Below are positions 1-16,681 of a stretch of DNA of 64,000 nt, piece after piece (position 1 is the first letter of the stretch; each line of letters begins with the position of its first letter). Below the pieces are notes generated by a model that was given only the letters and a program-made list of their open reading frames with translations, was not told the DNA's origin and did not search any database. The stretch is from a virus. Both the position numbers and the translations under genes were made by a program. Location: IMG/VR virus record IMGVR_UViG_3300047560_000348, positions 1-64,000 of that record; one strand, 5' to 3'.

Positions 1-37
1 ACGTGCACTTGTACACGTATAGGTGATTAACCTATAG
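1..37. repeat. Two adjacent inverted repeats at the window edge
   Basis: Positions 1-5 (ACGTG) pair with 14-18 (CACGT). Positions 18-24 (TATAGGT) pair perfectly with 30-36 over a 5-nt loop. They lie just downstream of tRNA-Gly on the transcribed minus strand. No T-tract follows the second stem, so they could be a processing or termination structure. No tRNA-like fold fits, and nothing is visible beyond the edge. Confidence 0.4.
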
Positions 38-108
38 AGCGAATAGTGAGAATCGAACTCACGCCACCTACTTGGAAGGAAGGAGCACTACCATTATGCA
101 ATATTCGC
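38..108 (-). tRNA. tRNA-Gly (anticodon UCC)
   Basis: The minus strand gives a 7-bp acceptor stem (GCGAATA with TATTCGC), a D arm with GG in the loop, an anticodon loop CTTCCAA with T33 and anticodon TCC, and a T arm GTGAG-TTCGATT-CTCAC. The anticodon stem has one T-T mismatch. The discriminator base is U and CCA is not encoded. It would read GGA and GGG. It is the distal gene of a short tRNA cluster. Confidence 0.88.
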
Positions 109-300
109 AAGGTGAGTAGGTGGATTGTCTATTACCACCAAGGAGAAGTCTAGATACCATTTATAGTACCGCCTTAATCCTACCAAAGCCTTGCTCCGCT
201 AAGAGCAGGGACGCTAATCCCAGCCTTGTGCAATTCTCGCCCCATCTAGACAAGGGACTTCGTTCTGCCATACTCCAGGTTCTGATCAGGAACCTGTTTG
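109..300 (-). ncRNA. Candidate structured RNA between two tRNA genes
   Basis: This 192-nt spacer has no convincing gene, but on the transcribed strand it holds a series of potential hairpins. These are 276-282 with 290-296 (7 bp); 224-229 with 250-255 (6 bp); 208-211 with 218-221; 192-196 with 203-207; and 119-123 with 135-139. The third and fourth abut each other and have the same six-base loop, TTAGCG. An 8-nt stretch (148-155) is also complementary to 244-251. It would be co-transcribed with the tRNAs from the promoter at 415-443. The only ORF reading with transcription is 36 codons (MAERSPLS...) with an SD one base from the ATG, so I favour RNA. Stable RNAs in the phage T4 tRNA cluster (species 1 and 2) are a precedent. 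No known family is recognised. Confidence 0.45.
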
Positions 301-373
301 CTGCCCCACCTGGGATCGAACCAGGGACCTGCCGATTAACAGTCGGACGCTCTTCCAGCTGAGCTATAGGGCA
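301..373 (-). tRNA. tRNA-Asn (anticodon GUU)
   Basis: The minus strand gives an acceptor stem TGCCCTA with TGGGGCA (one G-U), a D arm AGCTCAGCTGGAAGAGC, anticodon loop CTGTTAA with anticodon GTT, and a T arm CCTGG-TTCGATC-CCAGG. The discriminator is G, as usual for Asn tRNAs, and CCA is not encoded. It is the first gene after the promoter at 415-443. Confidence 0.95.
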
Positions 374-414
374 TTGTGTCCGTTAAGGATGGACTTCCTA
401 TTTGGTTGTAATTA

Positions 415-443
415 ATTATAGCATGTACTACGGTAGTTTGCAA
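415..443 (-). promoter_or_regulatory. Promoter of the tRNA cluster
   Basis: Reading the minus strand, -35 TTGCAA (443-438) is followed after 17 nt by -10 TATAAT (420-415), with an extended TGC before the -10. The predicted start near 408 leaves a leader of about 35 nt before tRNA-Asn. The -35 overlaps the end of the metallopeptidase gene. Confidence 0.7.
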
Positions 444-15576: not shown

Positions 15577-15879
15577 CTAGCGAGTTATGTACTTTAGAGC
15601 AGCAACCAAATTATTGATTGATTCTGCAGCAGTAAAGTACAAGTTTTTCTTCGCTCTATCTCCCTTATCTACGTTAGCCATCCAGGTTGCTTTAAAAGAC
15701 ATTTTAGCAGCAATTGCCTGTAGGCGTACGATCTCAATTGTTGCGACATTCAGAGGAATGTCTGGTTTAACTATTAATTTTGCAATAAATGTAAGTGCTG
15801 TAGTTAGCTCTTCATCTTGCATATAATCAGCAATGTCCGCTAGGCCATTGATCATGTCTAGTGTTGTTTCATTACTCAT
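15577..15879 (-). CDS. Conserved hypothetical, all-helical
   Basis: The 100-residue protein begins MSNETTLDMINGLADIADYM and is predicted helical throughout, with no Cys pairs or membrane segments. It overlaps the upstream oxygenase stop by 8 bp and lies 7 bp before the Cas4-like gene. It is probably part of the replication and recombination operon. No function can be assigned. Confidence 0.65.
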   Translation of the reverse strand: MSNETTLDMINGLADIADYMQDEELTTALTFIAKLIVKPDIPLNVATIEIVRLQAIAAKMSFKATWMANVDKGDRAKKNLYFTAAESINNLVAALKYITR

Positions 15880-16681
15880 TCACAAAGCCTGCAATCTCAT
15901 TTTGTGGAATGCCAGCCTCAAGTCCCATAGCGTTATAGATATCCCATGCTGCAATCATCTTTGGATGTGCAGCGACTTCTTTTCCATAAGCCTCTCTGCC
16001 CTCGAAATTCAGTTGTCCATCAATAGGATTGTCCATGCCAGTCCATCTATAGTTTGTTACTGGACAGTAATCAAAGCTTACAATCTCGCAGAACTCTCCA
16101 TCTTTCCACTTACGCTTTGGTCTCCAGTGAACCTGATTAACAGCACTAAAGATAATGGCATCGCCCTTCTTAAGGTTATACTCTTTATCGTCTACCCACA
16201 AAGTCCAGTCTTCGATGTTCTGGTCAAGGCAGTAGTTAAATGTTACCAGATTCTCGTCTGCATCCAGATGTGGTGGAAGTGATGGTGCATTCTTTCCATC
16301 ACCATACTTCATGTTATAGTCGATATAGTTAAAGTGTGTCAACCTAATTGGGTCCTGGTGCAAAGGCTTTGCATATGTATCCATCGTTTGCTCAATTGAT
16401 GGTGGACATAGGAACTCGATCAGGAGTCTGGACATGTGAATAATCTTTTTTGGATGAAAGCGTGACTGTCCGTAATACTGTTCCTGAGAACCTGGCATTG
16501 CATAGTATGAGTTATCATACATTAGCTGCCTGTTCTTTTCAATTACATTACGTAATTCTGCCACCTGATCATCTGAGAATGGCTTCTCAATATAGATTGG
16601 TAGTGCTTTGTTATATTTATCAAAATCCGTTAGCCATTTATGCATGGGTGCTGGATTGTATGGTCTTTGGTTATTAATCAT
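15872..16681 (-). CDS. 2OG-Fe(II) oxygenase
   Basis: The 269-residue protein has the iron site H138-x-D140 (PPHLDAD) and H185 in VHWRPKR. The segment HxRP...K..DGE is also seen in the adjacent upstream oxygenase, so the two are divergent paralogues. It is joined to that gene by an ATGA overlap. The substrate is unknown; the N-terminal 100 residues are extra relative to minimal members and may bind a partner. Confidence 0.75.
   Translation of the reverse strand: MINNQRPYNPAPMHKWLTDFDKYNKALPIYIEKPFSDDQVAELRNVIEKNRQLMYDNSYYAMPGSQEQYYGQSRFHPKKIIHMSRLLIEFLCPPSIEQTMDTYAKPLHQDPIRLTHFNYIDYNMKYGDGKNAPSLPPHLDADENLVTFNYCLDQNIEDWTLWVDDKEYNLKKGDAIIFSAVNQVHWRPKRKWKDGEFCEIVSFDYCPVTNYRWTGMDNPIDGQLNFEGREAYGKEVAAHPKMIAAWDIYNAMGLEAGIPQNEIAGFVNE

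Follow-up and report, generated by a model that had tools for sequence, protein, structure and literature searches.

A structured RNA between two phage tRNA genes

The window analyzed here is a stretch of 64,000 bases, which corresponds to bases 1-64000 of the 68,135-base viral record IMGVR_UViG_3300047560_000348. Its genome is that of a tailed phage encoding a portal, a head protease, a DnaB helicase, and a ribonucleotide reductase, and the nearest relatives of its DNA polymerase III alpha subunit are found in Streptomyces phages (55% identity). The minus strand also encodes a proteasome-subunit-like protein (1687-2211; Pfam PF00227, barely above the cut-off) and a ferrochelatase-like protein (15872-16681). 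ARAGORN found two tRNAs in the window, both on the minus strand, and an earlier note on this DNA had described a hairpin-rich non-coding RNA in the spacer between them. The spacer is present, although it spans 191 nt (109-299) rather than the 192 nt (109-300) first given, since tRNA-Asn occupies 300-373. The features of the locus, all on the minus strand, are as follows.

415-443, minus strand: candidate sigma-70-type promoter upstream of tRNA-Asn, TTGCAA-17 nt-TATAAT with TG before the -10 element (10/12 matches)
300-373, minus strand: tRNA-Asn (gtt), 5' neighbor of manA (ARAGORN and Rfam)
109-295, minus strand: manA RNA, RF01745 (Infernal and Rfam, 62.0 bits)
37-108, minus strand: tRNA-Gly (tcc), 3' neighbor, beginning 1 base after the end of the manA match (ARAGORN and Rfam)
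1-36, minus strand: first 36 nt of element X, truncated by the contig end; a neighbor and not part of manA (sequence match to relatives)

No Rfam family had been recognized in the spacer by the earlier note. Running Infernal against Rfam, the check it had proposed, contradicted this: the spacer RNA matches the manA RNA family (RF01745) over the full length of the model (positions 1-192; 295-109, minus strand) with 62.0 bits against a curated cut-off of 55.2 and an E-value of 2e-13 for the whole window (Rfam 15). The match begins 4 nt past tRNA-Asn and runs up to tRNA-Gly with no gap; tRNA and manA are the sole families matched in the window. manA was described by Weinberg et al. in 2010 (PMC2864571), and the family was revised in Rfam 14 (PMC7779021).

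We found relatives with a sequence pattern from the manA 3' end, which matched over 119 viral stretches, and with a clade-specific pattern, which matched 58; chance matches (loci L002-L121) were left out. Infernal identified manA in 48 of the 50 records tested. The clade of the window comprises 49 distinct sequences, which are metagenomic and in part near-duplicates and so do not represent 49 independent events; one lies in a cultured phage, Rhodococcus phage Francesca, where an unannotated manA (72.9 bits) sits exactly between tRNA-Met and tRNA-Lys. The phages Gaia, Pumpernickel, Mollymur, A3Wally, T4, Wakanda, BillNye, Daubenski, and Jay2Jay gave no manA match. A scan of bacterial genomes returned seven pattern matches, approximately the number expected by chance, and the single real manA among them is on a contig filed under Nonlabens xiamenensis (NZ_RMVE01000006.1). 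This 188-kb contig, which also carries PhotoRC-II, is identical to cyanophage P-TIM40 across the manA region and probably represents a cyanophage that was assembled along with bacterial DNA. Since the only real bacterial match is cyanophage-like, manA appears phage-borne with the pattern used.

Our data indicate that the spacer RNA almost certainly belongs to the manA family. The window copy exceeds the gathering score, while several clade members score 45-55 bits. Both the P1 hairpin and the long-range closing helix are paired with changes on both sides, and the 3' hairpin with GGUA...AAUCC is present. Hairpins A and B and phage carriage are shared with RF01745 as well. An Rfam hairpin with an ACCA loop (model positions 100-115), which is in the manA consensus and is not demanded by the model, is deleted in the window copy and in Francesca. 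Because it is absent, the window RNA is a manA variant and not the typical form; the clade RNA is a shortened version of manA. Clade copies score 45-73 bits, whereas most marine copies score 120-186 bits, and the GGUGGU and GAAA loops of the Rfam form are replaced in the clade by UUAGCG twice. Together with the ACCA-loop hairpin, the clade has lost the GGUGGU loop of hairpin A. Such a joint loss would be expected of two loops in contact, and we infer that they touch in the marine form.

Covariation and the pseudoknot

We aligned 47 clade sequences and scored covariation with a test of our own rather than R-scape: a G-statistic, corrected by average product, was compared with its values in 200 alignments that had been simulated along the inferred tree. 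Pairs were tested all against all and, separately, within the proposed helices only. The fold, read on the minus strand, consists of the following elements.

276-296, minus strand: P1 hairpin, 296-290 with 282-276 (covariation and fold)
271-275, minus strand: 5' arm of the closing helix, GAGUA, pairing with 118-114 (98-100% paired in the 47 sequences; three pairs doubly changed)
240-258, minus strand: P3 hairpin, GUCCC/GGGGC, whose loop holds a pseudoknot strand (alignment; 68-94% paired at individual columns only, weaker than the other elements)
244-251, minus strand: pseudoknot strand 1, GUCUAGAU (251-248 pair with 148-151 in 100% of the 47)
185-227, minus strand: stem 227-222 with 190-185 around hairpins A and B (227:185 with five pair types, E 1.6e-5; remainder poorly aligned)
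208-221, minus strand: hairpin A, GGGA-UUAGCG-UCCC (219:210 and 218:211, E 0; 220:209, E 0.0007)
192-207, minus strand: hairpin B, UGCUC-UUAGCG-GAGCA (204:195, E 0.004)
141-181, minus strand: helix 181-178 with 144-141 (100% paired; three pairs with E 0 to 0.0002)
148-155, minus strand: pseudoknot strand 2, AUCUAGAC (same evidence as for 244-251)
119-139, minus strand: 3' hairpin, GGUGG/CCACC, with near-invariant GGUAA...CAAUCC (alignment)
114-118, minus strand: 3' arm of the closing helix, UACUC (covariation)

Only nine pairs reached E < 0.1 when all pairs of the 47 sequences were compared. Four pairs (219:210 and 218:211 in hairpin A, 294:278 and 293:279 in P1) exceeded every value in the 200 simulated alignments. 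The two abutting hairpins with identical TTAGCG loops that had been noticed at 208-221 and 192-207 are exact on the minus strand; among the 47 sequences the UUAGCG loop occurs in hairpin A of 35 and in hairpin B of 36, and both loops are identical in 33.

The complementarity of 148-155 to 244-251 pointed out before is perfect (GUCUAGAU at 251-244 with AUCUAGAC at 155-148). Its core, 251-248 with 148-151, is paired in all 47 sequences and each of the four pairs has changed on both sides, which makes it one of only three among 10,155 possible 4-bp placements with these properties. The significance of the pseudoknot comes from this placement count and from the helix-restricted test, in which three of its pairs had E-values of 0.0056, 0.019, and 0.057. 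The strands differ in relatives: GUCAGCAA/UUGUUGAC in L177, GCCAGCAA/UUGCUGGC in L314, GGGAGCAA/UUGUUCCC in L312, and GCUAU/AUAGC in L304. Thus, the pairing is a genuine pseudoknot, joining the loop of the P3 hairpin to a downstream strand. The earlier note had offered an alternative or a pseudoknotted fold; a covarying pseudoknot is what the alignment supports, and not two mutually exclusive conflicting folds. The pairing is missing from the nested structure line of Rfam, and the 2010 drawing of manA marks a "pseudoknot?" (PMC2864571) that may be the one found in this clade. At the corresponding position the marine consensus reads GGCAU/AUGCC, and the marine sequences by themselves give no covariation there since the strands are too invariant.

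By folding energy the spacer RNA is not set apart from random sequence (z -1.45, with 15 of 200 shuffled sequences just as stable), and the whole tRNA-manA-tRNA transcript gave a z of 0.22. An unremarkable energy is what one would expect if the spacer were unconstrained and its hairpins accidental, or if it encoded a small protein. The Rfam match, the covariation, and the conserved placement contradict both ideas, indels in the alignment that are not multiples of three break every reading frame, and no conserved frame was found among the short ORFs. The chance-hairpin reading is already refuted by covariation, and we give this pair of explanations next to no credence. The two results named beforehand as able to overturn a structured RNA, a lack of covariation and a conserved protein frame, therefore both came out in favor of the non-coding RNA, which lies on the same strand as the tRNAs.

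Placement of manA and its neighbors in tRNA arrays

We found that 27 of the 49 clade members lie directly after a tRNA (within a few nt), that in 18 the 3' end falls within -1 to +1 nt of the following tRNA, and that 16 are flanked in this manner on both sides. The flanking genes form seven pairs (Asn/Asp, Asn/Gly, Gly/Asp, Thr/Asn, Glu/Trp, Trp/Gly, and Met/Lys) and share the strand of manA in every case, so that the association is with tRNAs in general rather than with any particular gene. This same-strand, flush placement recurs in many related phages and sets the clade apart from manA copies that precede protein genes. Clade copies without a 3' tRNA are mostly followed by an intrinsic terminator that begins a few nt after manA, neither reusing its 3' strand nor overlapping the closing helix. 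Three loci (L192, L212, and L220) have the order tRNA-Trp, manA, terminator, convergent gene, which leaves no downstream target to regulate. These neighbors indicate that clade manA cannot generally serve protein-coding genes as a 5' leader, and the window copy does not, its next element being a tRNA at 0 nt.

The tRNA-Asn-manA block of the window (109-412) is 99% identical to L203:1730-2033, in the nearest relative, while the flanking genes are 77-84% identical. The identity ends exactly at the manA 3' end, and the next tRNA is Gly in the window and Asp in L203. A promoter at 415-443 had been proposed to transcribe the spacer. The site is present on the minus strand; however, it is weak evidence, since the 700 bases scanned contain 3 promoter-like sites where shuffled sequence would give 1.2, and the upstream sequence of L203 differs at this position.

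Copies in marine cyanophages (96 distinct) are placed more variously: a tRNA directly abuts 14 of them and a degenerate tRNA another 4, 9 have a terminator, 16 a late-promoter motif, and 44 a same-strand open-frame start within 60 nt downstream. Counted over the 60 nt after manA, a T4-type late-promoter motif occurs in 19 of the 96, against approximately 3.7 expected from the motif density in the same marine loci (L122-L240). In P-TIM40 a transaldolase lies downstream of manA in a leader-like arrangement. Based on position, roughly half of the marine copies may be leaders, whereas those of the window clade are not so placed. Just after marine manA in L170, L196, L204, and L215 there are degenerate or cryptic tRNAs missed by ARAGORN that resemble tRNA-Gly(tcc) by eye. 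In S-SSM7, the annotated hypothetical protein SSSM7_180 (L355:1261-1392) falls inside a manA RNA (123.6 bits) abutting tRNA-Gly and is probably not a gene.

The element truncated at the window's end, element X, is a structured RNA of about 173 nt present in 16 viral contigs, with full copies in L313 (344-516), L322, L327, L330, L143, and L368-L377. In the contigs read, it begins directly behind a tRNA-Gly, -Asn, or -Asp and extends as far as the following tRNA, which is sometimes degenerate; L313 has the order tRNA-Asn, manA, tRNA-Gly, X, tRNA-Asp. Its 14 distinct copies share a common fold in which 13 pairs have changed on both sides. Rfam gave no match up to an E-value of 10, a search of cultured phages did not find it, and we consider it a candidate new RNA family. 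Two more inserts of approximately 170-190 nt directly after tRNA-Asn or tRNA-Asp (L309:5332-5500, L318:8505-8697, L336, and L342) are unlike X in sequence save for short motifs and may be divergent X or other RNAs. ARAGORN also missed degenerate or cryptic tRNAs at L327:846-913 and L309:5263-5331, which the Rfam tRNA model scores at 43-44 bits.

Similar arrangements exist elsewhere. The Bifidobacterium breve megaplasmid pMP7017 (NZ_KM406416) carries manA (41.5 bits, below the cut-off) between tRNA-Phe and tRNA-Arg, likewise inside an actinobacterial array of about 20 tRNAs; unlike the window, it is a plasmid, and 17 and about 135 nt separate its manA from the neighboring tRNAs. The study of pMP7017 listed manA among ncRNAs from the plasmid transcriptome in a highly transcribed tRNA array, and its authors noted that manA can adjoin tRNAs (PMC10832533). 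The precedent of phage T4 raised in the earlier note applies to position only: the species 1 and 2 RNAs (rnaC and rnaD) are small stable non-tRNA RNAs in its tRNA cluster, but the T4 genome (NC_000866) has no manA match and homology does not follow. GOLLD and ROOL are structured phage RNAs near tRNA islands with no function assigned (PMC12286853); they differ from manA in their folds and in their length of several hundred nt, and their Rfam models gave no match in the window.

Possible function of manA in tRNA-rich phages

We reasoned that manA in this clade is probably a stand-alone structured RNA that is co-processed with tRNAs. That manA abuts its neighbors, occurs with exchangeable tRNA partners, and can stand at the 3' terminus all argues for an RNA that rides in the tRNA transcript. 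Transcription would start at a promoter upstream of tRNA-Asn, and maturation of the tRNA-Asn 3' end and the tRNA-Gly 5' end (RNase P, cutting at 109/108) would free an RNA of approximately 190 nt. The closing helix 275-271/118-114 would join its ends and the P3-loop pseudoknot would compact it, yielding a stable RNA. Freed manA might then act in trans on a need of phages with many tRNAs; translation or tRNA metabolism during infection is the likeliest setting.

manA was originally proposed as a cis-regulatory element or riboswitch (PMC2864571), and Rfam labels it likewise; it would sense a metabolite and control a downstream gene or tRNA. Marine copies close to open frames, such as the P-TIM40 transaldolase, agree with this, as does a terminator right after the aptamer, a usual riboswitch layout. 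Yet copies precede five kinds of tRNA, terminators, a convergent gene, or a late-promoter motif, which would begin the downstream transcript past manA; the terminators leave the closing helix free, and in the window a tRNA follows immediately. We therefore regard a riboswitch as unlikely. Nearly the same low probability attaches to a structural role of manA in cis, within the tRNA transcript and with no trans function, whether as a guard of the 3' end against exonucleases, a spacer or ordering device in processing, or a mark of the operon end. Flush junctions on both sides, the indifference to whether terminators, late promoters, or tRNAs are neighbors, and a closed pseudoknotted fold suited to a roadblock would all fit such a role. 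However, most tRNA junctions in the same arrays have no manA (L203 has 17 tRNAs and one manA), and near-invariant loops (GGUAA..CAAUCC and the twin UUAGCG) suggest recognition over mere bulk.

manA has been on file since 2010 as a candidate riboswitch with no ligand assigned. The label of a regulatory leader of protein genes does not fit the position of the clade copies between tRNA genes, and with copies that directly adjoin tRNAs on both sides, or that come last ahead of a terminator and a convergent gene, the riboswitch reading becomes unlikely for this clade. Through plasmid pMP7017 and the cultured phage Francesca, manA is open to experiment. More tentatively, and with somewhat less than even confidence, we propose that manA, rather than being a riboswitch, is a phage RNA that tRNA processing sets free to act in trans, and that actinophage-type tRNA arrays hold at least two such RNAs, manA and element X, which would form a class with a shared role in infection.
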